Positions 2,208 through 47,200 of a stretch of DNA of 64,000 nt are shown piece by piece. The notes under the pieces are model-generated. The model was not told where the DNA came from. It did not search any database and worked only from the letters and a program-made list of their open reading frames with translations. Numbering within the stretch: position 1 is the stretch's first letter; each line of letters begins with the position of its first letter. The stretch comes from Antedon bifida (taxonomy: Eukaryota; Echinodermata; Crinoidea; Comatulida; Antedonidae). The position numbers were made by a program, and so were the translations under genes. The stretch lies in NCBI GenBank assembly GCA_963402885.1, contig OY727095.1, forward strand, positions 2,423,001-2,487,000. Reading direction: 5' to 3'.

Positions 2208-5200
2208 GTAAGTATTGTTTATTAATCATTGCTAAATCAAAACTGGGTGTGTTAATAAACAAATAATGAATGATTTGTATGGATGGAATATTTTCATTCC
2301 TTGATTTATTTAAAGATGTATTGTACCCCAAAAAACATAAAAAATGAAGATTAATGAAATCAGACTTTGAATAGGTTATTTTGTAGTTTTAATAAAGTTA
2401 ATAACTTTAAAAAAAAAATTATGTTTTCACTTGTAAAATGACAAAATAAATGGTTAAATTCAACCAAAAACCCATTGGCTGGTAGCGGCCAATTTGACTA
2501 TTTTTTTGCTTTAAATTACAGTTTTTCCAGGTAAATAATTTTTTCAACTATTATATGACATTAAAATGGCATATTCAAAAGACTTATTTTTTTAAGAGGG
2601 ACAATACATCTTTAACAGATAAACTGGTCTATCTTTCGATATATGAAAATATTATATCCATTCCACTCATAAAATAAAATAAACAGTGCAAACTTTGCTT
2701 TGATATCTTAAGCTTTGTTCCCGCTGGGATGCAACAAAAGGACGCAAGCTAATTGACCAATCACAAGTGACAGTTCGAATAATCCATCGCTTTTTATTGG
2801 TCTTTGCGTTTTGTCTTAGTGGGAACCAAGCTCATCCGAGATCATTTCAAATTATTCTACTGCAGTAAATAATATATATGCAGTAAATTGTACTACAATA
2901 ATTTTTACATGATCCCTTTAATAATGTGATATTGTGAAAAATGAATGACATTATTCTTCATTTTATAGGGGTATTTGCGGAGGACGAACCCATGGTGTGT
3001 AGCTTTACCAATGGTAGTGGTCGGCATTGTTCAAATCAGTCGCAGTGTACCGAATATTGGAGCGGTCCTAAGTTTGGAATCGTTAATTTTGACAATATGT
3101 TATTTGCAATGTTAACAGTATTTCAGTGTATTACTATGGAAGGATGGACAGAAGTAATGTATGATGTAAGTGAAGTCGCATTTGTCCGGTATCACAGGCA
3201 AATTCTTTAATACTTTGTCACATGTGTCATATGTGAAACTGTATCAGCATCGCATAAGTCTACTTTAAGTAGTAATACCATAACATAACTATATTTTTTT
3301 ATTTTGTTTTGCAGTGTGCGAATGCTCATGGAAGCGCATTTGTGTGGTTGTATTTTATCCCCCTTATAATTTTAGGATCATTCTTCATGCTTAATTTAGT
3401 ACTTGGTGTACTGAGTGGGTAAGTTGTATAAACTAATATCGCGTTCACATGTTAGAGGTTGCTCATGATTGGTGTGTTGGCTTATGGCCATATTCTAGTT
3501 TGAACAGCCACTTAAGAGTGGTTTTTGTCATGGTTGATCTTAAAAAGCTGCTCATGAGCAGCTCTTGATCAAGCTTAATCTTGTTTGGGTGAGGAATAAG
3601 GAAATCTGAAACAAGCTTATCAGCTTAGCCGGGATAATGCACCAATTAGTCCATCATGCAATTTGCACTCATTAGCAATTGGTCATGAGCAGCTCTTGAT
3701 TAGCAAACATGTGAACATGACTTAAATAATTTAAATCATTAACAAAAAAAAACGTAACTTATAAAAATCCCCTCCAGAGCTTCCTTTCTAAGGAAATTTC
3801 TATTTCATTAAATTCTAACAGAGAATTCGCTAAAGAAAGAGAGCGTGTAGAAAATAGACGACTTTTTTTAAAAATGCGGCGCCAGCAGCAAACAGAACGA
3901 GAATTAGACGGTTACATAGATTGGATTCGCAAAGCCGAGGAGGTGTTACTTAACGACACATCAATAACAGACGAAGAACGGGCAGCAATAGAAGGTAAAA
4001 ATTAACATATAATAGAGTTTGAAAGTTTTCCATCACAATACTATGTGATACCGCTCCGTTGCTACAGAAACGATTTGAACCGACCAATGAGAATTGACCA
4101 ATAAATGTTACAGACATTATTTGCGATCTCTTTTGACAACGAAGGAGGTCACATGGTACTGTGATGCTACAAACTCTATTGCGAATGAAATAAAAACAAA
4201 TTATTGCATGAAAACCTAAAATTAAACAGTCTAATATTAATTTTTTAATTTTTCTGATGTGAAAAATAATATAAAATGATATTGAAATAACCGATTTGTT
4301 TTGTATTATTTACTGATAAGAATGAAATTTTATTTAAAATATTTATTTATTATTTTTATTGAATTGATGTTAAATATTGAACCCAAAGATGCTCCTTATA
4401 ATTACATATATCAAGTGACCCTAACTATAAATTTATAAAGGTCAAATGTCAACCTTATTATCCCTGGTTAGCCACCCAATTGTCCATAGCTTAATTACAA
4501 AAGTTTATTTTGCTTTTTTTGCAATTATTTGATTTAATAAAGTATATAAAATCCTTTAAATTGCAATCACTGACAGCACAGTATACCACCATGTTAATGG
4601 CTGCACTAATAATACTGTATATTATGTTTTGAATGTTAAAATATCATGCACATGAATGAAAAATAATTATATTAAATATTATTCACTTGATTTTGCCGTT
4701 GGTGTTCACTGAACTGTATATTGCATTTAAAATCCTTATTTTGTTTGAGCATCATTTAAAGGGTTTTTATTTTTTCACTCATTTGTGTTTTGTGTGATGC
4801 ATGCTTTTTCCATGAGTTTGCTTTCGTTCTATATAGCTCGTCGTCGGGCGGCTGCAATGCAACAAAAAGAACTTCAAACTAACGGGGATGCTGGAAACGG
4901 TGTTGCCGCCGTAGTGGGAGAAATAGACACTATCGAGGTTAAGAAAAACGGTAGGCCCTCTTGGAATAATATCTCCAATCGCTCCTTCCTGGTCGCTTGC
5001 CGGCTGTTTTTTTATTACTCTATTTCTTCTTATTGTCTCTGGTAGTGGGAGTTGTCTAATGTTCCTGGAAGTCTTGCTTCTTATGTCTGTCATACTTCTA
5101 GTTGAACTTTAGTGTGTAACTTGAATTTAAAGCTTGTTTGAGATTAAGTTTGAGAGACTACATCATCTAGCTTTTCATGGTATAAAATACTAAAAATACT

Positions 5201-8200: not shown

Positions 8201-11200
8201 TCAGCATCTTAATTAAAATAAACTGATAATTACCCATGATTCATCAGTACTTATTACCCATGATTTATTAGTATACATTATTCATCAGTACATATTACCC
8301 ATGATTCATCAGTATACATTATTCATCAGTACGTATTACCCATGATTCTTTACTTATTACCCATCATTCTTCTGTACTGATTACCCATTTTTCTTCTTTA
8401 CTGATTACCCATCATTCACCAGATATTACCCATGATTCATCAGCACTGACTAGTTTTCCAATTTGACAAAATGTAGAATTATTGTGACTCATTTTAGCGC
8501 TGATGCATAAATTCATTAATACCAAGCATAGAATAATTTTCTGCATTGAAATGTTCACAGTTCTCAAAAATCAAACTATTGAACCTTCATTATTTTATGA
8601 ATAACGATTTGTACAAAAAATGTACCAAATTTTAGATTTTTATTTCTAAGTACAGTATTTTGGAATAATCTATTTCTAATGAATAAGTCATTTTAGGCCC
8701 TTGTAATGTATGTACACTAAAATTAGAAATGGTATTGCAGCCTCATCTTAAAAAAAATAATGGTATAAATACTGTAATAAATTTAAATTTACAGTAAATA
8801 CTAACTATTATAGAAAATACTGTTTCTCCATCTACAATTAAATATGTCCAAATTCTTATATTAAAAACAAATGTTATTTATAGTTCATTTGATCCCACGG
8901 TTACCAATATAATTAAGAAGATGTTTGTGGGCAGAATTCCTAGAAAAGCGTTCCATGTTATTATAAATCCACTAATAAGTAAGTGCATAAAAAATGAATT
9001 AACACCGCCAAGTTCAATAGCTAATGATGCCGCAAAGCTGTATCCAGTATAAAACATCTGTGGGGGCGTATTTTTTTATATCAAATACATGATGTATAGC
9101 GATATGTAGAAAGAATATTACAAGGAATTTTAGGTTAGATTTGATTGATATTAGTATATATATATATAGAGCAGACATTTTACATTTTACAGCAGCTTAA
9201 TTCGAAATTTATTATTTTGTTATGACAACCAATTTATTACAAATTATTCTCATTTAAAAAGATTTAATACCATAGTAGAGTATGTAAATTTGTTTTATTT
9301 GTGAAAAGAATATTTAAATTTTAATAGAATGGATTTGTTTAGCTTTAATATTTATCGTTAATGAAACATTTTGTTTACCATGATATTGGCTATTTGTACG
9401 ACAGGAGTTATATTGTTAATCGTTTCATTGTCTGGGCAAATCTTGGGTTCAGCCCTTTTATTTTTCTTTCTTTGACTAAGTCTAAAAAGAATAGTTTAGT
9501 ACTGTAAATGATAGAATGACAGTGATTATCTGTGCCACTTATTCCTCTATGTCTCTTATTTTTCTGCGCCACTTAAGTGGCTTATATTTCTGTGCCGCTT
9601 ATATACCATTTATTCTTTACACCATGTGTTCTTCTACAACACTAATTATTCCGCTATGCCGCTTTTTCCTATCTGTTGCTTACTCTTTTATACCACCTAT
9701 TCTTCGCCGCTTATTCTTTTACACCACATATTCTTCGTCATTTATTCTTACGCCGCTTATTCTATACCACTTATTCTTCTACCATATATTTCTTTTTATT
9801 CATCTACAAGTACGGTACTCATATTTCTTGCGCCGCTTATACTTCCTGCACCGCTTACATTTCTTGCGCCGCTTATTTTTCTTGCGCCGCTTATTTTTCT
9901 TGCGCCGCTTATTTTTCTTGCGCCGCTTATTTATCTACACTGCTTATATATTCATCTCTTCAGTTTATTCTATCATTTACAGTTATTTTATGTGGATATA
10001 ATGTTATAGTTATGGTCTAGCACTTTTTCTAATATTTTATGTATATTAATCTTCCTTTTCTTAATAAGTCAATGTTTTAGCATTTAGAGGTGGGATATTA
10101 GTAATATTAAGAGAGGCTGGCCAATCTATCAAATACATTGTGCACAGAGAGTTAAGAGACAAAGATCACAAATATTTAAATTTGATTTAAACACATGTTT
10201 ATCATTTAATTTGCATAAACCAATTTACATTAATTTAATTCTGTTTTTCAATGACCATTTATTTTATCCCAACCTTAAAAATAAACTTTAATTTATGATA
10301 TTTCTAGCATGTTTCATATTTCAAATTGTATAATTTAAAAAAATTTAAATATTTAATTACATTGTTTTATATAGTGGTTGCTTATTAATAAATTAAAATG
10401 TAATAATCCGTATCTATTGTGGTAGTGATCTATGTACATTACTAATTAAATATTAATTGTTTACTCTTTTATTTATTACAATTAAATTAGTAATTTTACA
10501 ATATGCAAATTAATGATAAACAGTGTTTTTATTGTATCAATAAATCTAAAAATAGATTTATGTATTACTCTTTGATCTAAAAATAGATTTATGTATTACT
10601 CTTTGATCTAAAAATAGATTATGTATTACTCTTTGGTCTAGTATTAATGTTTGACCAATTATAAAATATATGTATTGGTTTTAATTTATTTATAAACAAG
10701 TACAAAAAAAAATAATGGTTGAACATTAATGCAGACTCTTTAATCTGTACACAAAAAGATAGTGATGGGGATCTTTTGACTGAACACAGAATTTGAAATG
10801 CATTCAAGCGTAACAAGCTTTTGCACATGCTCATAAAACTCACTGATTAAATTGCAGCCTTCTGTGATAACTTCTACTCTACATCCATGGAGCTATAAAA
10901 TTAGTTAGCTCCATGCTACAACCATGGACCTATAAATGGAGTAATGGTCACAATTCACTGATTCCGTGTGTAAAGTGGGCGGATCATTGCTACGCTTGAA
11001 TCCTTTCATTTGTTGCGGTCAAAAGCTCTCTTCTGTTCTTGAATGAAAGGCCAATCCTATTGGCTGGTCAATCAAATCAACATACATGGTACAAACGCAT
11101 GATTCTTAATGAAAATTTTCTTTTTCTTCCTTCTCTTTTTCCACTACCCTCTCCTGCTTGCTTACATCACGTTTTATTTGGCAATTATCCTCTTTGTTTT

Positions 11201-14200
11201 CTTTGATATTTGCATAACCACTTACTAACACAATTTCCCGTCTATTTAATTTGGACTTTTCTAACGACTGCCTATGCATGTGTTAACATACACCCTCACA
11301 CACACACCCGTCTCATTAATATGCCCTACCCTCCCTCCCCCAACCCCCCTTCCCTACCATTTTTATGTTATGCATATTAACCCAGAGCCACTAACAAATT
11401 CCAAAAATCACTCCAAAAAACCAGAAAGGCAGAAAAAGAAGCAATGTTCGGGTTTTCGCAAGAAGGAGTACCAATTTCGGATATTGATTCGTAAGATGGT
11501 GAAATCTCAGGGCTTCTACTGGCTCGTCATTGTGCTCGTATTTCTGAATACCGTATGTGTTGCTATTGAGCACTATCCGCAACCATCATGGCTCGGAACC
11601 TTCCTCTGTAAGTATTTTTTTATATTGTTTTAAGTTAAGAGTTTTATCAAATAATATACAAATATAGACCTTTGTACCATATACCATCAGATGTTATGGC
11701 GGTTTCGCAACCGTATAAATACAATAACAAATATGGATACATCACAAAAAAGGTATTGGTAAGCCAGTAAAACTCTATTTCGCATGGCAACGATAGAACC
11801 CCACCTTTAAGATACCCCTCCTTTGGGACACCATATTCAGACACCTTCCTGTGGAAAGAGCAAGAGGCATTGTAACATTAAGACCAACCTCTAATCAGGG
11901 CACATCTCTAAAAAACTAGGGTTTAGAAGGACCAGCCACAATCTTACCACCAATCTATTCAATTCTATTTTTTGCATTTTCTAACCTTAAAACTTTCTTT
12001 CGTTTTACAGTCTATGCGGAAATAACATTCCTATGCGTCTTCATCTTGGAGATGTCAATAAAAATGTATGGTTTAGGACCTCAGATATATTTCAAGTCAG
12101 CATTTAATAAGTTTGATTGCATGGTATGTTATTATACATTATAGTGTAATTTGCATATTTTTGTTAGCTCTGTACAAAACCTCTTTATAACATAATGTTT
12201 CATCATACATGCCGACATCTTAAGTTGTTATGTGAGGTGGTTTGTTATGAAGGATATTTAACTTCGAGAATGGATTCAGGATTGCAACTTTGAGAATGGA
12301 CATGGGTTGCAGCTACAAGTGAGGAGGAAAAAAAAGTTTTAAAAAATTACAAAATACCCACAGGAATATAGCACATTCGATTGAGCTTTTTTGGTTTGTT
12401 TTTCACAGGTCATTTTAGCGAGCTTGTTTGAGGTCATCTGGTCAATATTCAAAGATTCATCGTTTGGCCTCAGTGTCCTGCGAGCTCTTCGTTTGCTTAG
12501 AATTTTCAAAGTAACAAGGCGAGTATATTTAAAAAAAAATGAATCTAGGAAAAATAATTGTAACATAATCATTTCTAAAAATCATGATCGAGTACCAAAA
12601 GTCAAATCATCCGGACATGATGTTTACATTCTCAAACTCTAGCAAACAATAGGTATGTCTCACTGAAGTATGGAACGGAAAGTAAATAAAATGAACGTGC
12701 TGCTTTATTTTGTATTTTGTGATATGGAGAAATGTAATTCGACAAATACCAAACTGCACACGGTTAACTTTTAATTCTGAATATTTTTGTAGGTTAGAGG
12801 TCAGGTCTAACTTATGTACCGTAATAAACATTAACATCCTTGTTCACAGATACTGGAAGTCATTGCGCAATCTGCTAGTCTCCTTGTTCCATAGTTTACA
12901 ATCGATTTTAAGCTTGGTCTTTCTCCTTTTCCTGTTTCTTGTAATATTTGCGTTGCTCGGAATGCAACTATTTGGTGGATAGTAAGTAACGGACAACGAG
13001 GAATCATCTCTCCACCTACCATATCATGGACGACATCCCAGCTTCCATTCTTTCTTGTTTAGAACTGTAAAACAATTTTAACTTATCGTGGACAAATAAA
13101 ATTGAATTATCAATTTGACATACAGTATTGTTGCTGTATTTTATTAAGCTTGGTTCCCACTAGGGTGCAATGCAAGACCAATCGTGATGTGACTAATCAA
13201 ATTTACCTGCGTTGCACTTGCATCCTAGTGGGAACCAAGCTTTATGTTGATTTAAAGTTTTCTCGACTTCGCTACAATTAATGGAAATTTATCGAAAAAA
13301 CTAAATTATAATTGAATAGAGATACTGCTTAAAACAAATCGTATTTCAACTTGTTTGCCACAGTTTTGCAATTAATTTCTCACCTAAGATCATTTGACCA
13401 TAACAATACGATATGGTGTCTCGTTTCCAAATGGCAAAAGTTACTATTACAATGAAAATGTAAACAAACAAGAAACAAAGGAATCAACATCACCCTTTTA
13501 TCTGATCATTAAATATATATATTACATTGATTATTAATTTAAAATTTTTTTCATCTTTCTGTTTCATTATATTCTCCATTCATCGGATCCACCTATAGAT
13601 ATTGGTCCTCTCTAAGGAATTTAGTCATCTCCCTACTCAGTAGTTTACGATCCATTGCGAGTTTATTGTTCCTACTCTTCCTGTTCATTCTCATCTTTGC
13701 TATGCTGGGGATGCAGTTGTTTGGAGGAAGGTAATTACGTGTACAGTAGTGAAAAGTTACGGTTGCAGCAATTCTCGCCTATCGCAATCCATGCGCCCCC
13801 AATTCCAAACATTACTGAAGTTGAGTTATTGGAAATATTCGAAGTGCATTGTGGGAGATGTTAACATCCTGATTGTGGGAAATATTTTGAAACACATGCA
13901 TTGTGGGAAATGTCAATACGGAAATAATTATGTTGACACATGTATTGTGGGAGATTGGCTAACAAACGGAAGATGTTTTTCGTTGGTGCTGTAAATATAT
14001 GAAAATTGAATTATTCTATACGTTCTATATTAATTTTTGGGTATCAATACAGTATTACTACAAATTAACCATATATTATAGCAGATTTACTGTTAATCAA
14101 ACCATATATGGGCATTGGGGTGTATTATGTGGATTGCAAAATGCGAAAATTGTATTGCATGTTATACAGTGTACTGTGAATATATAAAATTTATATTATA

Positions 14201-29200: not shown

Positions 29201-32200
29201 TATCCTCTGTACCTCAGATCCACCTACTTTTTACAACCCTGTATTAATATGTAATCAATTGTAAACTCTTATTTAGATATTATGCACACTGCAATATTAT
29301 ATGTATATCATATCATCCTATGTAATTTTATTCAAAAACTAAATTCTTTCTTTAAAAATACTGTTAACTTTTAGAATTTTATGTTTTAAAGTCATTGTAT
29401 TTTATTAGGGTATTTTTATTAGATATATTTAAATGGTCATTTACACTTTGCAATATATATATTCATAATTTAAAGTAATTTTAAATTGATACATCTTTTG
29501 TATATCTTCAACAAATTACACATGTTTATATAAACGTACTGTTAGGGTAAACATTTAGCGTTTAGTACTGTATTCTTACTAACATTTTAGAAAATGAAAT
29601 TCTGCAATATTTATTTAATACTCTGAAGTGCCTACTAAAATGATTTGTTGAAGTTTGTGAATTTTAATTTGCTATTTTATTTTTTCCTTTAGTTGCGACT
29701 TTTTTGTTTCAGTTGACGCTGTACTAAGAGACAATACATATGTGTTATGTCTTGTATTTTGTTGTTTATAGCACATAAATATTCTTTGACTTTGTGTTCA
29801 TCTGCTGGATCACTTGACTACAATAACTTAATTTGATTGGCTGATTTCACAAACATCCTGACCTCTGTTTTCTATAGTTTTCCAAGGTTTGTCAACTGGT
29901 CTGGAAAACTTTTGAAAAAATTTCTTGACGAACTTGGTGTTAGCAAATTACAGATTGCCCTTTGTCCTGATATGATAATTTTAAAAAATTCATTCCTGAA
30001 AATAATTTTTAAAAATAACTTGCTATACAATTCTTGCAGAGAAAATTTATTTTCAAAGAAAACTTTTCTTGTATATTTCCTTCTATGATAATAAGATAAA
30101 TTGTGTTTGCAATGTTGTTTTCACATTATTCATTTTTCACCACAAATATATGTCTTCGTTTTTTCCCATTAATCTTTTGTATTTTTGGTTTTTGTTTTTT
30201 TTTTTTGCTCTCTAACTAATTTTTATTGCTGTTTTTTATCACAAATATTTCTAGAATTCCTTCGTCTAGAAGCTTCAAAATTCTAAAAAATAATCAAAAC
30301 ACATTTTTTTCATTGTATTTGTATTTTATTGATAATTAATACTTATAGTTGATTTAATTTACCACTGATATTTGTTTGAAAAACAAGAAAATTGTTCCAG
30401 AAATGTAACATTTTGGTTTTTCACCGTTTAATGGTCTCTGAAGGAATTTCTTAGAAAGTGTCAAAACAAACTAAACTATTTTTGTTTAGATTTGTTACAC
30501 ATTTAAAGCTTGATATCATAAAAAAAAAGCTCCTTTGATTTAATTCTGAATCGCACTATCAATATTTAAATAAAGGCCGTGTAATAATTGAGAATTTTTG
30601 TCAGTGACGAGGATATTTGTTAATTTAATTTGAGTCACTGTGAGTTACTGTACTTGTTCTATGCTATTTTCTCCATAATGATTTGACTGTCCTGTATTGT
30701 GTAATATATAAGCCATATAATACAAACACAAAAAACGCACTTACTAGTCATCTTAGATTCAAAGATTTGTCTAGATCCATGTGCATGCTACCATTTGTCA
30801 ACAGTGTCTATAATCCAGATATCTTTTCGTTGCGTTGAATATCAATATTTTTTATCAAATTATGTCACTTAAATACTTCACTTATAAAATTGAAGGTTGT
30901 TGGATGAATTTCAAATTGCATGTGGAAATTGCATGTTGCAATCTATGGGACAAACTTTCGTACTGCTACTGTATATAATAAATAGGATAGATAGTGAAAT
31001 AAAAATATAGTCTGCAAGGGTTGTCAGGAAGCTGATCTCTCTCTGTGTAGTTGTAAAAGGGTATAGCAGGTACAAATAACCAGCATAACTTAATTTGTAT
31101 TTGGTATGACACTTTCTTGTTTGTTTTTACAGGAGGGATTTATTAATTTGAGTGTTTTGAGGCTTTTTCGAGCAGCTAGGCTCATCAAACTTTTACGTCA
31201 AGGATCGTCGATTCGAATCCTACTTTGGACTTTTGTGCAGTCTTTCAAGGTATAAAATGACATTTATTATAGTGACTTTTGTAATTTTGCCTTCCATAGA
31301 CATTGTATTTGCATACTCTATCTAACCCTAGCTTGTTAGTATGAACACCGGACTATCTTCAGTTGGTTGGTTTGAGTCTCATCCAAGAAATATTGAGTCT
31401 CCCTGGTGTAGCACTTCTATGGGGCCAACACTGGATAGCTGATTGATGCTGCTCATGGTCTGGGGCTCCTTAAGCTCTGGGGCACATGAGTTCAGCCAGT
31501 TAGCGCTCATAGGTGTTAAGCCACTGATTCTCCTCAATGTACTGAGTATGTAGGACAATTTTATTATGGAAAACCGTCTTTGTACACTATACAAAACAAG
31601 TTGAAGAGATTGTTTTCAAAGGTAATTGAAAATGAAGTTGGTTCTACTCTATGGGTTACCAAACATCCAGAATCAAACATATTTGCATACATTTAACATA
31701 TTTTGTTTTTCACTTTTTTTTCTTGTCTTAGGCATTGCCATGGGTATGCCTATTAATTGGAATGCTTTTCTTTATCTATGCAATTATTGGAATGCAGGTG
31801 AGTCTTTTTAGCATAAATTTATTAATCTTTTGCGCCTAATTTTCTCTCTCTCTTGTCTGCTTTTATCATTTGAAGTTAGGTCCATGAATCTAAAAAGTCA
31901 TGTGATACACATACAACCATTTTGTTTCATATCCAGCCTTGTGCGCTCAAGCATTGCTTTTTAAAATTATATACTTGGCAACAACAGAAAATACTCCATC
32001 TTAAATGCCTGCGTTGATGTTAGACAAAATTTTAGGAAAGAATTTACCCTATACATTCTTCCCTAAAATCCCCTATTATAATCTGTTTAATATACATTAT
32101 TTTTTTATTTGAAAAATTAACAAATAATATGTTTCGCTTTTTGGGGGAATAGGAGTAGCAGATGTCATCAAAAAATCAAGTTGTTTTTTAAAGTGTATTG

Positions 32201-35200
32201 AGTGAGTGATGATGAGTTAATGGTTAGATTAGATTATTAGGATAAACAATTTGTGATTAAAAGTTATAACTTTATAGTATTTTAATATTAGGTAGTTAAT
32301 TTGTTTGAGTGACATTATTACAGTTGAATTCTGTGATTAAATAACAGAGTTTAATGATGTGAAGAAGTTATTATAATGTGATTGGATGAAAGTATCGTGA
32401 GGTTGAGTGACTGAGTGGTTACAGGGCTCGAAAATTTACCCTAGCAATTGATTCGACAACATAATAATTGACTTTTTTTTTTGGCTGTTTGCTTTCTCAT
32501 TTAGCTAGTTAGATTTGCTAGTAAGTTGACAGAAAATTAAACTTCGAGCTAATTCAGGGGCACTACAACAAACCATGGGCATAAAATTAGAGCGGGTTTG
32601 AGGAGGTTCTTGTCCATAATTCTGGTGGTGGAAGTCACACTATTGTTCTGGTTCAAATTCTTCCCTGCCCTGTTATGGTTTCAACTCATGCACTCCATTC
32701 TAGTATAGCTGTGTAGAATAGGATTTATCATACTAAGAACCAAGGGTGGGGGAGGGCGATACATAATCTACTGGCCGATTTCTTCACAGGTTAAAGGTGA
32801 AACAACTCTAAAGGGACTGGAAGTCTCTAAACCAAGGATGTGTTAACTTTATTTATGCTTTTGAATCTAGATATTCGGTGATATTAAATATTCTGATACT
32901 TCAAGCTCTATCAACACGCACAACAATTTTCATAACTTTTTTATGTCGCTCCTGCTATTGTTCAGGTAATGTTTCACTTCTGGCAAAATGCCAACCAAAC
33001 TAATATGTTAGACCAGGGAGTATGCATAGGTATGTGATAACTACAAAAACTACACTCAGTGCAGTACAAAAAATAAATGTCAAAGGTCATTATGAATACA
33101 CAAAGTCGTTGTTTCTGATTCTGAATGCCAGAGACTGTCATTGAGCTTTGAAGTTTTTGCATTTTTTACGTACCTATTCACATTCATGGAAATCTAGGTC
33201 ATCAGTTGTAAAAACTGATTTCACTTAATCATTCAAACAATAAGCAGTGGTGTTTTTTTCTTTTTTTGTTTCTCTCCACACACGCATGCAACGCCATCAG
33301 ATGTTCGGAAATGTAGAACTCAATGATGAAACAGAGATTAATAGTCATAACAATTTTCAGCTGTTCTTTACAGCTCTTCTACTACTATTCAGGTAGACCA
33401 AATCTAACAGCAGAAACATTAAAAATTGTGTCTGGTGTCCCGTCTATATATCCTTGTCTATTGATCCTTGATGTAACACCGACTATCCCATCATCAATGT
33501 GGAAAAAAAGATGTTTTAATAAATCCCAACCTGACACTTACCTTTTACCCATATGTATTGGCTACCTCTTTGAAATTCTTTACTTCTTTTGATTATGATT
33601 TTTGTTAAATTTGACTGCGTTTAATTTCATATTCAATATTCAAACTTTTATATGTGGTATCTGAACCTAATGTTTGGTTTATTGGACGGGAATTTGTCTC
33701 TTGCTGGCTGGATAGTAGTGATCTTTTTTGGAATTTTATCTTGCTAACACATACTAAGGGCTACCTTATGCTTAATACAGTTCATGATATCAATGCATTT
33801 GTTGTATGTATCTTTCACCTCATTTACACTTTTGGGCCAAACCTACTGTAAGTTCCTCAAACTAGGATCACCTGGACAAATGGCTGGAACTGGTTTAGAC
33901 TGGCATATGTAGTCGCGCATATCATATTTGAATTTTTTGACTTAGATCAAACCATAGAGCAACATTTTATTGTCAAACAATGAGTATAATATGACTCATT
34001 AATATTCAAAATGAAATTAACCAAATACCAATGGACTAAAAAAATATATTTTTTTAACTACAAAGACTGTAAGTGTAAACTCCCTTTTAAACACCACCAT
34101 CCTTTAGGCCAGTAAGTGTAAATGGGGTGATGATCTTCTATGTAATAACCTATCTTTGTTTTTATATTGTTTAAAGGTTTTAAAAATGTATTCTTTGCTG
34201 TCTTTACAACCAAAATAGCCTCTTTATACCTGTATATTGTTCCTTAACTATTACTATTCTTCCTTACCTATCAATTCCCTGTGTATTTCTTTCTTATTAA
34301 TAATACAGATCTGTAATAAACTTGCTATATAATGCAAAAGAAAAGATTAAAAAACATTAAAAATTAAAATTAGAAATTTAATACAACCTTTCTCACTAAA
34401 TAAGGTTTTAAAAAAGTTTGGCGTATTGCACGAAACTCCTTTACTGCATGTGGTATCAACTAAAGTTACAGTCTGTATTTAACTGGTTTAAACTGGTTAA
34501 ACGTGATATATTAGTTAGCCAATTATTAAACAGTATTGCTTTACCAGTTTACTTTGGTTCAAACCAGTTTAATTTGTTTTAAACCAGATTATTCTAGTTC
34601 TTACAAAAACAATGTGATAAAATCAAGTTAAAATCAATTCTTTAATACTCTATGTACTTTCGTGACATATAATTCTATTCTTTTGTATTTCCTTATTCTG
34701 CTAAATGTTGCTATTTATGTTTATTTACAGTAGCAGTTCTCTGCTAAAATAGATATTTGTCATATATTTAACAATAACAGATTTCTTTAGTATTGTGTAA
34801 TTCTATTGTTCAAAATAACGTGAAACTTTACTGCAAAACTAACCATTATCTTTTTTTAAAATCTTTTCTTGGGAATAAATATGTTTTTCTAAAAGAGAAA
34901 TGATTATTTAATATAGCATTTGTGAAAATATAAATAAAATTGTAATAGTTTTTACAAGGAAATATCAAAATATTATTTTAGCGCTCAGGTTGTGATAAAA
35001 AGATATGCCAAATCAAGCACGCACAAAAAGGATTATTAAATATTTATTGAATTCTCATTTCCTCTTTATAAACTATATTATAAAAATAATTATTGTAACA
35101 AATAATGTTCAAATGTCCAGAAATGTTTTTGAATTTAAAAAAGACTCTCTACATTATATAATCTAATAAAAAAACTAATTTACATTTAAAGTGATATTGA

Positions 35201-38200
35201 GAAAGAACTTCTAAATTTTATAAAAAAACAGAAAACACATCATTTGGCTTTAAAAGTGATGGTCTAAATTAAAAACTTATAAGTTTTAACATATGTATTT
35301 AATTGTATTATTGTAGAGATTCTTTTTGTAATTCAATATATCTTAGAGGGCTATATAATAAATGTTGTATCTATCCCTTCTTTTGTTTATTATAAATGTA
35401 TGTATCTTAAGAGCATATTTTCAACAAAACAAAACCGGTTACAAAAAAAAAAAAATCAGCTAGAATGCTTTAGAATGCAGGAAAATGGCGGATGGTTCAA
35501 TAAAAGTGTGCTCTTGTTTTGCAATATAGACATAAAATATGTATACAATCTACTTTCCCGTTTTCACATTAAACATTTTATGTATTTGTAATGCGTAATA
35601 ATAGCCTGTTGTAAAGTTGCCTTTCTAATATTAAGTTAAGATATTGCTTAAATCTTCTTTTATACTTTTGGGGATTTTATTCAATTGCATGATTTGCATA
35701 TTATCCTGAATTTATTTTCAAAAAAATTAACCATATCCAAATTATTTAGTATTGAAATTATTGTCAATGCCACCAATTTCATCTTTGACTCCATATTAAA
35801 TATATATTAATATACATTTTTATTGGACGTTTCTCAACGTGTATAGGTGCGCAACAGGGGAGAGTTGGCAACTGATTATGTTAGCATGTATATCGGGTAG
35901 AGCGTGTGAGGGCAAGGCAGGAAATGAATGTGGATCCCCGTTTGCATACGTATATTTCGTTAGCTTTATTTTCCTTTGCTCATTTTTGGTAAGTAAATTA
36001 AATTTTTTTACAGTCTAATCATGCCTTTCAGTCGTGCACATTTTTATTCCTCAGGGGTCTTTTATTAAAATGTTGGAGACACTACATTTATAAATGTGAA
36101 CAAAAAAGTTGATTTTTGAAAATGGTGTTTGGTTGCCAGTGTACACAAGATCCTACCACTATAAACCAGTGTACACAAGATCCTACCACTATAAACCAGT
36201 TTAGACAAGATCCTACCACTATAAACCAGTTTAGACAAGATCCTACCACTATAAACCAGTTTAGACAAGATCCTACCACTATAAACCAGTGTACACAAGA
36301 TCCTACCACTATAAACCAGTTTAGACAAGATTCTGCTGCTATAAGCTGGTGTAGACAAGATCCTACCTCTATAAACTGGTTTAGACAAGATCCTACCTCT
36401 ATAAACTGGTTTAGACAAGATTCTACTGCTAAAATTCTGGTGTAGACAAGTACTATAAATCTGTGTAGGCAAGACTATTCCAATTCTAATGTTTTATTTT
36501 CAGATGTTAAATCTTTTCGTTGCTGTTATTATGGACAATTTTGATTATTTAACAAGAGATGCATCAATTCTGGGTGCTCATCACTTGGATGAGTATGTTC
36601 GGATTTGGGGAGATTTTGAGCCTGCAGCAACGTAAGGACTTATTATTTTGATCTCTTTAGAATTTTATTATTTTGTCTACAAATTTAGATTTATTGACAT
36701 TTATGTCTGAAAATGGTTTTCAGATGCTGGTCATTTGATTTTATATGTTAAAATTATTTTCTAACTATATTCCTCTTTCAGGGGGAAGTTAAATTATGGG
36801 AAAATGTATACCATGTTGAGGAAAATGGAACCTCCTGTAGGATTTGGCGCAAATTGCCCTGTCAGAATAGCTTACAAGGTTTGTAAAATGTTTCTAAGCA
36901 TTTTTAACGTTTTATTATATTTCCATGATTGAAATAACTATACCTGGAATAATATGCAATTTCAGGCACATAAAGCCTGATCCCACTTGTTTTGAAAAGG
37001 ATAAGAATTGTTTTCAATATTGAATGTATTTTGTCTCCTTTCTCAGCGATTGATCAGAATGAACATGCCACTTAACGATACGATGGAGGTCCATTTTACC
37101 ACGACATTGATGGCTCTCATTAGAACAGCATTAGATATTAAAATCGGCAATGGTAAGTTCAATTCAAATTCAATCTCAGTTTTCCTTCAAAACCCCAAAA
37201 TTCAATTCAATTTCAATTCAAAATTTATTTTCACCACAACAGAAAAAGTATATAGTAGATAAATAACATAATGGTTTGATTGGAATTGGTACCCACTGTG
37301 ATCTTAATAGCATAAAAAGTGTAAATTTCAACAAGTTTTTATTTCATTTATCCTCAGTTGTCGATCGTGACCGTCATGATAGAGAATTACGAGAGGCTGT
37401 CAAAGTCTTCTGGCCTCGATTACCGGAGAAGAAAATAGACCTTCTGGTCCCTCCAGACTGTGGTATGAATTTTATGTTTTAGCTTTATGTATAATGAAAC
37501 TTATTTTGGTGTAATAATATAGATAGACAAATCTTGTTACATATTACTTTAAAAGGTAATAATATTTAATCTTGAATCCAAATTAAACTTTATTAAATTT
37601 TCTATATGATTTTATGTAGTAATTTAAATTATAAAAATATAATAGAGTTATTTAAATTAAAAATTAGGAGTTACCGATATATGTATTGTTCTCTTTTTCA
37701 TTTTTCTACAGCTCTCTTTTATTTATTTGTGTTTATTTTTTAACTCTTTCTTTTCGTTCTATTGTCATTTTATTTCTTTTTGATAATGTTAGGTTATTAC
37801 CCAACCTATCCAAAGAAGGTTTACGGTATGGAGCTCTCGTTTGTCGTGCGTTTGACCTCAATTGACCCATAGCTTTTTAAAAAGTGTATATATCCTTAAC
37901 ATTAATTTGCATATTTTTAATTAACTTAAGAGTTAATAACAATTAATGTGTCAAAACAACCTGTAAGAGCAAGACGGCGCAATGGTATTGAACTTGTGTG
38001 TGAGAAGGCATAAGTTCGAGAACTGTCCGTGCATCTTGTCATTAGAAAACAGTACAGTAGAACCCCTATTAAGGGGGAACCTTTGGCCCTAACAAAGGTT
38101 AGGGCCAAAGTGGGGTGGGCCGCAGTGTATATATTTCAAATTCATGGTAAAGTGTCCCCTGTCTACATTAGTATCATTCAGAAGGACACTAGATGTACAT

Positions 38201-41200
38201 GAAAAATTGTCATCAATTCAAGTGTTTTTCCGTTTTACCGTAGAAGGCCGAATTCGCATTTCCTCACTTTCTAGGGATCATTTATATATTTACATTTTTT
38301 ATTTTGTCATTATTCCTTTGTGAACAAAGAACATGTTGAAGAAGGCAGGTGTGATGAGTGTAAACGAAGGAAAGGTATTTAATACAGAGCAAACCGTCCG
38401 CCATATGCAAAACACAGCTTATTGCATTGGAAACTCAGTGAAGCATGTCCTTGTATCCTGCTACATTCCCATATGCGGCCCTATGTGTTTTTAGAGCCTG
38501 CAGAAGTTGAATATTTCATCATCTTTTTAAAACACCTTTAATGTGTACCTAACTCCCCCTTAAAAATCTACCAATACAATAGTTTTTTACATATTATTAT
38601 CCAATATATTAAAATAATTCACATTTCAATTAAAAATTTCCCATAGTATTTTACCTGCATGTTTGGTTCTCAACACTTGGTTCTGTCCACGAATTCAAGT
38701 GCATCTTTAACCTATATTGATAATCTTCACAAATTTAGCATGCCAACCTTAGCATTTGCAGTCCTTCCTAATTAAAACATTTTAAACAATTTAACTCATT
38801 TTGTTTTTTGAATTTTCCAATTTACATAAACTTATGCATTCATTGTATATTCCTGTTGAACAAATCACACCAATTATTTATTCTACTAGCTATCAGAATA
38901 TGGTTTCATATTTTTATCCTAAAAGCTCCAACCAAAAAACCAATGTTTACTGTAAGGAGTTTCTGTTAACTACAAACCTTGACCCACCTATCTTCAACTA
39001 AATGTCATCAGTATTTTTATTAAAAGCTTACTGTAATCTGCTAAAGGAGATAGCTTTGGCTATAACATATTTTTTAGACAAAACAGAAGCAGAAGAAATA
39101 TTTTATCCACATTTGCTGTTTTGTATACATGTATTAAATAAATAAAATGCTTTTTGACTATTTGAATTAGGAGATTGATATCTAAAATATTGCTGTTTAT
39201 GCGTCAGCTTTTTATCCCGCTTTTTCCTATATACCTTTGTTGTTGCCACAGCGCTAATAATAAAGTTTATTGACGACCAAAAACCTGTGTAATTTAAGGA
39301 ATGCCAAAATTGAGTGGTGTTTTTTTTACTATATATCTGGAAAAAAAAAAAAATCTTACTTTAGTAAACAATCGAAAATGAAGTGAACAATATATTATAT
39401 TTGGCAATCTTAACATACTAATAAAATGTGTGTGTGGTTTGTGTGCGTTTACTATTTTAAGATCATATTTTATACAACTTAATATACTATATCCATCTTT
39501 GAATACATCGGTAAATGTTTGTTTAATGTTTATTAAACTGCTTATGAAAATGCGTAGATACAGTATAGTAGTGAATAGCAACAACTGATTACATAGATGA
39601 TAATATAATATAACTAAAATAAGTGAAGCTGTAGCTTGATGGTTAGCATGGTTGCCTTTCAATCCCAAGGTCCAGGCTTCAATCCTGACTTGCGTCTTTT
39701 TCTACTCCACTCACTAAGCCTCAAATGAGACTCTATACAGTACTGTAGCTTACAAGCAAGAACAAGTTTTTCCATTCTGTTATGGAAAAGTTCTTGGCAG
39801 CGAACGAAAGAAAAAATGTACAGATATCCGTTACTCATCTACTCAACTTCCATATTAACATTCCAGCTTATTCCATTTATGAATAGGAGGTGATAGTTTT
39901 CATGGGTACTCAATTAATTAAGTAAAAGTCAGAAATGCATAAATGCATGTTTTTCTAGTACAGTTCCACAACCTAAGGAAAATGTGTGGGACTCATAGTC
40001 AGGGTTAGAATTGGGTTTTGGATCACAAAATTAAGTATGGTAGACTTAGTATATTGATTTTCTTGATGCACAGCCCTACAAAGACCAAACCTGTGTGATC
40101 TGGATCACCATGCAACTAACTGGAACTTGATTTATCTGCAGGTTGATAACATTAGTTAGATAAGTCTTTTTTAGCTTGGTTAGAAATGGCATTAAAAAAA
40201 TTTGGTTATAATATAATTTAAACGGTCGGAAATATGTTAATCAAAAGTGGTATTTTGTTTGTACTTTTTCATTTAGGTTTTAATAATAGTGAGTATTGCA
40301 TTTTATTTAGAAACATTTTTTTTTTGGAAGGTGGCAGTTATTTTTTGAACCCTGTAAAAATTTCATTTGGGTGAATTTTGCTGAAATTGAAGATTTTTTT
40401 TCTGTTTTGTTTTTGAAAATAAATTAGTTAAGGATTTTTTTTTTTTGCCATTTTTGTACTGTACTGTACATGGCACAGGTGTGAATCTACAAGCTGTTCT
40501 TGTGTGACCCGAACCTAAACTCTCTAGATGTCAAACCTGGAGTCATACCTTAATACCATACCAGTTTATATCATTTACACATTATATCTTGGCATTAACT
40601 TGGCATTATCGCTGGGTGATTTTAGCATTTGTCTTTTTCCATACAATAAATAATATTTTTATTATAAACTTATTGTTAATGTTAAATATTAATTTTGTAA
40701 AATGTTTGTTTCAGATTGGAGAAATGCTTTGCGTTTTTAAAATGAGCTCTTTTTGCGTATTTTGGATAAATATTTCTACTTGCTTTAATTTGGGATATCG
40801 ATCAACAGTTTTTAATCCAATTCATACCAATTCTCTTTCATTTTGTTTGTCTTTTCTATGATTTAGTTATTTTGCTTTTGTCTTTTATTTCAATCTTTTA
40901 TGTGTTTTATTTTCAATTACCCAATAGAAAATATGATATATGGTAAGGTATATCATTATAAAAACAATATATATATATATAGAAAATTAGTTTTTTGATT
41001 TGCTTGTTGTAAACAACATTTTTTCCTTCGACCAATAAAAAGTATCATCTCCAATCCTTGCCTTTTCCTTGATGCAGTTTTGTAGTTTTGCAACTAACAA
41101 AATTAAATCTATTTAAAAAATATTCAAAATATTTTTTGTAATTTTTAACCCTTTTGAAAAAAAAAGCTAAATATTAAACCCATTTAAAGCAATTGATTTT

Positions 41201-44200: not shown

Positions 44201-47200
44201 GACTTACTTTAAACTTATTAAATTTCATTTCCGAAAGTAAACTTAAACATTAGTTTCTACTTAAGTTAATGTTTCTAAAAAGAACCACCATATTTTAGAT
44301 TCCCGAATTATAGGCAGGCGTTTTGCAGAAATGTTACTGCCAGAGCCTCCACAATCACTTACTCTAACATTGATTGGACAGTATTGAGTAATAAATTAGC
44401 ATAATTTTGCCTAAAATGTATGTAGTAAAGCTTTTCAAATAACAATTCATAAATTCAGACTTATTGATAAAACCACTACAAAGGTCATTCAGATATTTTG
44501 GTACTACGTAAACAAGCATGCGCCCTCTATCATTATTTTATATCTCGATAGGAAAACGCTTATTATAAGTATATTATGAAGAAGCACCCAAATGCCGATC
44601 TCAATGAACCCAAATACAGGGCACTATTTTCAGACGACTTTTTAAAAGTACGACAAAATTGGGCCAGTATGGTACCTGTTATTGTCCTCTTGTGTTTCTC
44701 TCTCGCTCTGTGGTTTGTGTGGCAAGTGTTGAGAGTGGTAGTTTCTTTGTTAATTTCATTATTTTTTGTAAGATTTTTCGTTACTTTGTTTTCTTCAGCG
44801 TTTGACTCAACTGTGGATGCATTTTTAAAAAACTTGTATAATTAAAGTGCTAAAATTTAAGAAACATTATAAAGAGCAAATTTAAAGTTTCTTCATTTTG
44901 GAACAGTGTTTGATAGTATGTTTTTTTTCAATTTTTTAACAGTTTTTTAACCACAATTTATAGTTTTTTTTATATCAAAACTGATTTTTTTGTTATAAAT
45001 AAATTTGAAATCAAAACAATATTGACAAACTACTACTGTATTAAATAATGATAAAATTAGATAGCATCTTCCAAACATTTTCAAATGGAAATTCACTTAT
45101 GCTTGAATTTCAAATTTGTCTTTGGTGTTTCATGAACCTACTACAGATATTTACTATTACAAGTTTTACAAAAATGTTTCCAAATAATTTTTTGTTAATA
45201 ATCTTCTCCTTTATCAATACTCTCTCTCTCTCTTGTCAGTATTATAGCTGATCCTGAAGAATGCTATAGACGCCAAGTTGTACTCTTTTATTTCTCATCT
45301 GAACTTAATCTCAATTTATTGTGACTTTTTATTATTCAAAAAAATCTTTTCTTTTAAGATGTAAAATGTGTGTAATATGATTCTCTAGTTATTATCAGTT
45401 AGGACAACTTTTTTTTTAAATTGTGTCAATATTTTTTGTCTTATGTATATTGTTTCTTTGGCTGTTTGATGAGTGTTTTGACTTCCAAACATCTTTGAAT
45501 TTCTGTTTTTGACTTGGCTGTGTAATTTCTCCATCTTTTTATTCCTGTTATATTCCCATATACTTTTTCCTTGTTTTGTATCTACCCCTTTTTACTACAA
45601 ATCCGTGGCTTTCGTTATATTTTTATGTAAACCTACCTAAACTTTTTAAAACTATTTATAATAATATACTGCCTGTCGATATTTACAGTTTTTTTTATTA
45701 TCTATAAAATATTTTTAATTATCTAAACTAAATTAAATATAGAAAATGTTTCTATACTGACTGTTTATATTTATATGTATACGTAATCCCTAGATTGTCT
45801 TATTCTAATCCACATCAGTTAACTGGATTATCCCTGTTTTGTCTTAATCTAATCCATTTAAGTTAATTGGATTATCCACTTTGTCTTATTCTAATCCATT
45901 TTAATATTCCGGATTATCCACTTGATGTCTTATTCTAATCCATCCGTTTAATAACTGGATTATCCATTTTTCATGTGACTTTTTGTAATCCTCGTTTGTA
46001 CTCTCTTAAAAATGTTAAACATAGTAATGGTTCCGGTAGGTGCACCATCTCTTGGTTCTAATGTAAATTTTATTTTAACTTTCTCTTTTATAGCTGTCTT
46101 TTTGTCTGTCTGTTTTTTCTCTGATTTTTAACATAAAATCAATTCTACACTACATTGTACACATTAAATTGTGTAATTCTTTTAATGAAATCTATAATTA
46201 TTTATATGTATAATATAATTTTAATTTCAAGATTAAAATCAAAGGTGTAGTAAAATAAATATATCATTTTGCTATACTTTGTATATTATTAGAAATATAA
46301 ATTTAAGGAATTTTTATTTTATTGCTTGAGCGTTTTGATTAGGCATGTGATGTTTTCGATAAATCTGGTAAATCGTTTGCAACAAACACTTTTGGGATGT
46401 TTATACGCACATTTCAAGATTGCTCCAGTGTTATTATGTCTTGCGACTGTTGGAGCAGTATTTCTGTTATGCGCCCTCTATTGTGTACGGCAATTTCAGT
46501 TGTGGATTATGTCCCCTTACTGCATTTATCTGCTTGATGTTTTTTTCTTTTTCTCTCTTTCTCTTCTTAGTCTGTCGTAGTAGTAATTACTATCTCAAAC
46601 AGTAGTGCTTTTCGGCGAATTTTAAATTAAAATAGGCATTTGCATCCTTTCTGTGTGTTACTACAACCCCTGGCAATGCATAGGTTTGCATCTTATTATT
46701 CTGGCTTCTTATGCCATGAATGTCAACAATAATATATACTATCCCTTTACAATTGTTTGATTTTATATCCGTGAAATATTTGCAGTCATGGCGGATGATA
46801 CGTAGCATGCATTGTTGTAGGATTTTGGAATGCATAATTTACATAAATTATTAAACAGGTGTTCATAAAGTGCACCTGTGATGTATCACTTTAGTGACAG
46901 GTGTCATTTTCTGTTATATTTATATGTATGAATGCTCTTTTTATAGAGGGGAGTGTTTGCCTGAAAAAAAAAATGCTTGCTAATAGATAAAATAAATTTT
47001 ATATGAACATGATATTCGTTTCTCAAACAGCTGCGTGATCAAAAACGAAAGGAATACTTGGCCAAAGTGGAACGTCGTAAAGCGTTGGAGCTAGAGCAAC
47101 GATCTCGCTTACAAGTTCCCGCAAATAATAATGTCTTAACTCTAACTGATCAGCCGCAAAATGGGTCCATTCAGGTATTTTGTTTGTTCACTGATGGGTC

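Follow-up and report, generated by a model that had tools for sequence, protein, structure and literature searches.

A putative mutually exclusive exon pair for the repeat-IV outer pore in the Cav2 calcium channel gene of the crinoid Antedon bifida

Alternative pore exons in related channels

In the Cav3 (T-type) channels of molluscs, nematodes and other protostomes, exons 12a and 12b encode alternative S5-P1 turrets and end just before the selectivity filter (PMC9694082, PMC4436565; these and the other papers named here are cited from excerpts). NALCN has two tandem pairs of mutually exclusive pore exons, 15a/15b and 31a/31b, the former also being present in echinoderms and hemichordates (PMC3557258). 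In Drosophila, where cacophony is the only Cav2 gene, the excerpts report the IS4A/IS4B and I-IIA/I-IIB pairs as its only two mutually exclusive sites (PMC11828482, PMC12370356).

The pair of exons described here, 23A and 23B of a Cav2 gene of A. bifida, is like Cav3 exon 12a/12b in offering alternative S5-P1 turrets that end just before the filter. It is not of the exon 12 type, however, as far as the excerpts describe that type: the Cav3 exons lie in the repeat-II turret, carry extra cysteines, differ in length (~41 versus 52 residues) and have been shown to switch the Ca/Na preference, whereas the crinoid exons lie in repeat IV, have no cysteine and encode 31-32 residues. In NALCN, again from the excerpts, it is the filter residue itself, E or K in repeat II or III, that the exons exchange, while the crinoid filter glutamate is in a constant exon. 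Like cacophony, the crinoid gene is the only Cav2 gene seen in its genome and has a pair at IS4 among its probably exclusive pairs, but the excerpts give no IVS5-P1 pair for Drosophila. This kind of exon pair is known from Cav3 and NALCN; no account of one at the crinoid place, the outer pore of Cav2 in repeat IV, turned up in the literature searched.

A repeat-IV exon pair in the Cav2 gene

The window, by which we mean the whole 64-kb stretch analysed, holds most of a Cav2 channel gene, which occupies nearly all of it on the + strand. Compared with solved channels over repeats III-IV, the gene scored 1216 bits against Cav2.2, 1168 against Cav2.1 and 1130 against Cav2.3, versus 931 against Cav1.3 and 484 against Cav3.3, which places it nearer to the Cav2 type than to the other two. 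The EEEE filter is present, with TMEGW in exon 2, LTGEDW in exon 10, STGEGW in exon 16 and ATGESW in exon 24. The closest protein found was the annotated Cav2 of Antedon mediterranea (P0126, isoform X5), with ~94-100% residue agreement within exon limits; lower printed percentages come mostly from alignments running into introns. The features on which the comparison turns are as follows (P0128 is the annotated protein of Anneissia japonica).

3822..3994, + strand: exon 4, matching P0126 and P0128; it carries the Cav-beta binding AID motif of the I-II linker
31732..31797, + strand: constant exon 22, end of repeat-IV S5; donor CAG/gtgagt, phase 0 out
32871..32965, + strand: alternative exon 23A, 95 nt, A-type turret and P1 helix; phase 0 to 2, donor CAG/gtaatg
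33301..33392, + strand: alternative exon 23B, 92 nt, B-type turret and P1 helix; phase 0 to 2, donor CAG/gtagac
35847..35988, + strand: constant exon 24, with the filter (CATGESW, which includes the repeat-IV glutamate), the P2 helix, the P2-S6 loop and the start of S6

Exons 23A and 23B are both open, are bounded by AG and GT, lie next to each other between the same constant exons and have the same phases; their proteins are identical at 17 of 31 aligned residues. The frame is kept by exactly one copy. When either was spliced in silico on its own, the frame remained open through IVS6 and beyond, while joining both led to a stop after 4 codons into B and omitting both led to a stop 17 codons past GMQ. 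An earlier note on this DNA had proposed tandem homologous exons for the turret and pore helix of repeat-IV S5-P1, and a frame break on their double inclusion; both claims were borne out, and the coordinates, lengths and phases it gave for the two exons are correct. The two exons are a real, well-formed pair that is usable only by single inclusion.

A profile of 17 homologues, from which the window's own sequences were excluded, was run against the 2358 ORFs of both strands of the window. It matched 23B at 59.7 bits (E 2.3e-17) and 23A at 54.3 bits (E 1.1e-15); the next-best ORF reached 9.6 bits (E 0.11), and on five shuffled windows the same profile did not exceed 10.6 bits. The two matches are therefore not due to chance. 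No third copy of the exon was found among these ORFs. In the whole genome (315.6 Mb), where a search at E up to 10 returned 17 matches and the best candidates were scored, Cav2-type copies of the exon were seen in the window only, the other matches belonging to a Cav1-type gene, an apparent Cav3 gene and an apparent sodium-channel gene. The window gene is the only Cav2-type gene seen in the A. bifida genome.

The Cav1-type gene, on contig C16, provides a comparison within the same genome. Its type is supported by 176 bits to Cav1.2 versus 142 to Cav2.2, and within the 50 kb examined the equivalent exon is a single open frame of 93 nt, with flanking introns at the same two places as those around 23A/23B. 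The cassette exon is ancestral, and its duplication is not general. Elsewhere in this Cav1 gene, at C16:143898-144577 (minus strand), there seem to be two tandem IS6-type exons, one reading IYFVSLILLGSFFVLNLILGVLSG, where vertebrate Cav1.2 has its exon 8/8a pair.

A scan for other duplicated exons compared 36 exon pieces, from the exons up to 55856 apart from a small one near 38330, with the window ORFs (hits at E < 0.5). An adjacent homologous copy was found only for the IVS5-P1 exon and for the IIS4-S5 exon, and the remaining matches were weak or joined one channel repeat to another. The best of those left unexplained linked exon 19 (IVS2) to 46137-46247 in a C-terminal intron (E 0.015) and may be due to chance. 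The window has no Rfam matches. In the intron that follows exon 24, close to the IVS6 exon, a 30-base unit is repeated 9.7 times as a minisatellite (36136-36426). The features at the other tandem pairs, one of which precedes the window, are listed below.

12409..12518, + strand: constant exon 7 (IIS3-S4), which precedes the IIS4-S5 pair; unusual GC donor AACAAG/gcgagt
12850..12981, + strand: exon 8A, 132 nt, IIS4-S5 linker and S5
13599..13730, + strand: exon 8B, 132 nt, IIS4-S5 linker and S5; the type used in P0126 and P0128
L009 8434-8525 (92 nt) and 9823-9950 (128 nt): IS4 exon pair, the third tandem pair, with the same end phase, on contig C8 and 50-1566 bases upstream of the window

Exons 8A and 8B resemble exons c/d of the sodium channel gene para, which are mutually exclusive S4-S5 exons of repeat II. 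The GC donor (gcgagt, 12519-12524) is common to both IIS4-S5 exons; at this place the A. mediterranea model reads KVTSYW, versus the KVTRYW expected from a gcgagt donor. The protein models of a sea urchin (P0122) and of the acorn worm Glandiceps (P0129) carry both IIS4-S5 types in tandem, so that the pair is seen across Ambulacraria, which suggests that it is older than the echinoderm-hemichordate split; the pair is frame-neutral, so that double inclusion is possible in gene models. Patiria X1 has an A-like type alone. At IS4, where Drosophila cacophony also has a mutually exclusive pair, P0126 uses the first type and P0128 has the second. The earlier note had counted two exclusive pairs and four pore versions. 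The count does not hold, since there are three pairs (IS4, IIS4-S5 and IVS5-P1), which allow eight combinations, and since IIS4-S5 is not part of the outer pore.

Relatives and the age of the pair

Exon 23A is found letter for letter in the annotated A. mediterranea protein (32/32 residues); the annotated protein of Anneissia carries a stretch of the B type, which matches the window's B at 24 of 31 residues, with 5 of the 7 changes falling in the turret as judged by eye. Antedon belongs to the Antedonidae and Anneissia to the Comatulidae. The A type is thus identical in a congener and the B type present in another family, while both forms together were seen in no relative: among the annotated protein models, A was not seen in Anneissia, nor B in A. 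mediterranea. The protein database was clustered at 90% identity, which hides isoforms, and the annotated proteins are database models. No B type was seen in the nine eleutherozoan proteins examined, which come from eight species (Patiria, two Asterias, Diadema twice, Strongylocentrotus, Lytechinus, Amphiura and Apostichopus); all nine carry forms that we read as A-like. Among the 120 matches listed in a search for the partner exon in echinoderm fragments, compared over the exon stretch, no named one is from an echinoderm, and many are unnamed.

An exon tree was made from 35 sequences and 31 columns, with a bootstrap that had not settled; in three rows (Saccoglossus, Lineus and Lingula) the initial residue, and in that of Lineus also the final one, was filled in by hand. 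It groups the window's B with that of Anneissia (support 98/93). Provided that this tree is correct, B dates back at least to the split between Antedon and Anneissia and has been kept across two crinoid families, the Antedonidae and the Comatulidae.

The eight annotated arthropod isoform pairs of Cav2 that we compared, from six species and each named as belonging to one gene, all differ by a swap at this site, in the part from GMQ to LLFR. They are from Penaeus japonicus (two pairs), Anopheles maculipalpis (two), An. aquasalis, An. funestus, An. darlingi and Macrobrachium nipponense, and were picked for showing two forms, so that eight of eight is not a frequency. For example, the An. aquasalis isoforms X3 and X1 have no other difference in 1919 residues. 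The stretch swapped is the same as in the crinoid, but the sequences differ and do not group with A or B in the tree. No printed description of this arthropod IVS5-P1 swap was found in the literature searched. The decapod isoforms (P. japonicus P0136/P0154, Macrobrachium P0189/P0148) also swap ~35 residues around IVS2.

How old the duplication might be depends on how these comparisons are read. The pair could predate the split between crinoids and other echinoderms, with exon A as the form retained in the sea stars, urchins, brittle stars and sea cucumbers. The tree agrees with this in grouping the window's A with seven of the eleutherozoan sequences (84/95, not starred) and the two B exons apart from these; the same tree has just 31 columns and an unsettled bootstrap, and in the AU test a single clade of the three crinoid exons was not rejected (p-AU 0.247). 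We give this reading about an even chance, and an origin of the duplication before the echinoderm radiation is favoured rather than shown. A still older origin, with the pair being a splice site of the bilaterian ancestor and A and B matching the two arthropod forms, could explain why mosquitoes and decapods use the same place. At turret positions 6-7, by eye, the window's A has K-Y where the arthropod M form has K-F, and its B has E-L where the arthropod I form has E-L or D-L. Yet Anneissia B has K-L at these positions, it is the P1 helix of B, rather than of A, that resembles the M form (by eye), and the 31-column tree joins neither arthropod form to crinoid A or B, which makes independent duplication as likely as common descent. 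This reading as a whole is, in our opinion, unlikely.

Exon choice and its consequences for the channel

The donors of 23A and 23B score 3.6 and 2.8 bits, both below 22 of the 24 reference donors of the gene; the two references scoring lower are exon 28, whose end was set one base off and fits 37462 better, and exon 10, which was placed from the A. mediterranea protein. The acceptor of B, in which the pyrimidine tract ends ~20-25 nt before the AG, is the weakest of the set at -9.5 bits, below all 25 references. Regulated exons often have weak splice sites. The intron that separates the two exons has 335 nt, too long for steric hindrance to keep them apart in splicing, and this explanation was rejected. 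The 4 kb region contains 27 inverted-repeat pairs, of which the 25 listed are short and mostly A+T-rich; one pair (31881-31897 with 33174-33190, 17 nt, 82%) could loop out exon A but is not relied on here. Because of the 335-nt intron, the weak donors of both exons and the weak acceptor of B, we favour a regulated choice combined with decay of the frame-broken double products. Each mature channel would then contain one of two versions of a stretch of 31-32 residues that starts at the end of IVS5, takes in the turret and finishes where the IVP1 helix ends. Exclusivity would be enforced at least by the frame, double inclusion or double skipping leading to early stops and presumably to decay, and the weak splice sites could leave the choice between A and B to trans factors.

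The exchanged stretch corresponds by alignment to residues 1620-1650 of the solved Cav2.2 chain, that is, the S5-P1 loop and the P1 helix, and ends before the filter. Ziconotide contacts Asp1628 and Asp1629 of the repeat-IV loop of Cav2.2 through its Arg21 and Lys4 (PMC10761187, excerpt). Both positions fall within the cassette, in agreement with the suggestion of the earlier note that the choice concerns a region contacted by toxins; at the first of them all three crinoid sequences would have D, and at the second B would have E, A would have T and Anneissia B would have S. The same note also had auxiliary subunits contacting this region, which is not supported: in the excerpts, alpha2delta binds the loops of repeats I-III and the IS1-S2 loop (PMC10761187), or has its contacts placed on loops I and II (PMC9889812), all of which are outside the cassette. 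The repeat-IV effect on activation described in PMC9889812 (excerpt) concerns residues 1680-1683 of Cav2.3, which by alignment are in the P2-S6 half and are constant in the crinoid gene.

The net charge of the turret is -1 in A, -4 in B and -1 in Anneissia B. Charge is accordingly a contrast at the level of the species, since the acidic turret of B is not conserved, and Lys versus Glu at turret position 6 was rejected as a conserved contrast, as Anneissia B has Lys there like A, in place of the Glu of the window's B. Across echinoderms the contrast is in the P1 helix after NNF, with H/S/A/G in the A-like forms and Q-L in B (by eye). The choice may alter the outer mouth in its charge and shape, and also how the P1 helix packs, with the EEEE filter unchanged. 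It might in this way tune the local ion concentration and how strongly protons, divalents or pore-blocking peptides block the channel, and possibly its gating.

A stronger effect, a switch of ion selectivity as with Cav3 exon 12a/12b, could be imagined from the turret lysine of A where B has glutamate, since in the snail Cav3 a turret lysine alone flips the preference from Ca to Na (PMC9694082, excerpt). That lysine, however, acts from the repeat-II turret on the repeat-II aspartate, whereas the crinoid turret belongs to repeat IV; moreover, Anneissia B also has lysine at the position, and with the filter glutamate in constant exon 24, outside the cassette, selectivity need not switch. We regard such a switch as highly improbable. 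It could also be that one copy is a dying or unused duplicate, which looks intact and is not spliced into transcripts. The splice-site scores, with weak donors on both exons and the weakest acceptor of the set on B, would fit this, as would the fact that the listed A. mediterranea model has A and the listed Anneissia model B. Against it, both copies are open and in phase with AG and GT ends, each type is present in an annotated crinoid protein, and B has retained 24 of 31 residues between two families with most of its changes in the turret, so that we consider an unused copy very unlikely. In our judgement, 23A/23B is with high probability a tandem-duplicated, mutually exclusive cassette in the sole Cav2-type gene seen, its exclusivity, regulation and effect being what we infer from the sequence.

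Vertebrates diversify presynaptic calcium entry through several Cav2 genes, whereas splicing is the only route for animals that have just one. The crinoid would offer, provided that it uses both exons, a natural pair of channels, ~14 outer-mouth residues apart, in which the roles of the repeat-IV turret and P1 helix in conduction, block and toxin recognition could be studied. The arthropod gene models that use the same site suggest a recurrent or ancient solution. As a tentative proposal, to which we give somewhat less than an even chance, IVS5-P1 could be a hot spot where the Cav2 genes of distant animals (crinoids, mosquitoes, decapods and perhaps water fleas) have duplicated or kept outer-vestibule exons, which would provide single-Cav2 animals with presynaptic channels that differ in the charge of the mouth and in sensitivity to peptide toxins and, in the crinoid, together with the IS4 and IIS4-S5 pairs, with up to eight channels.
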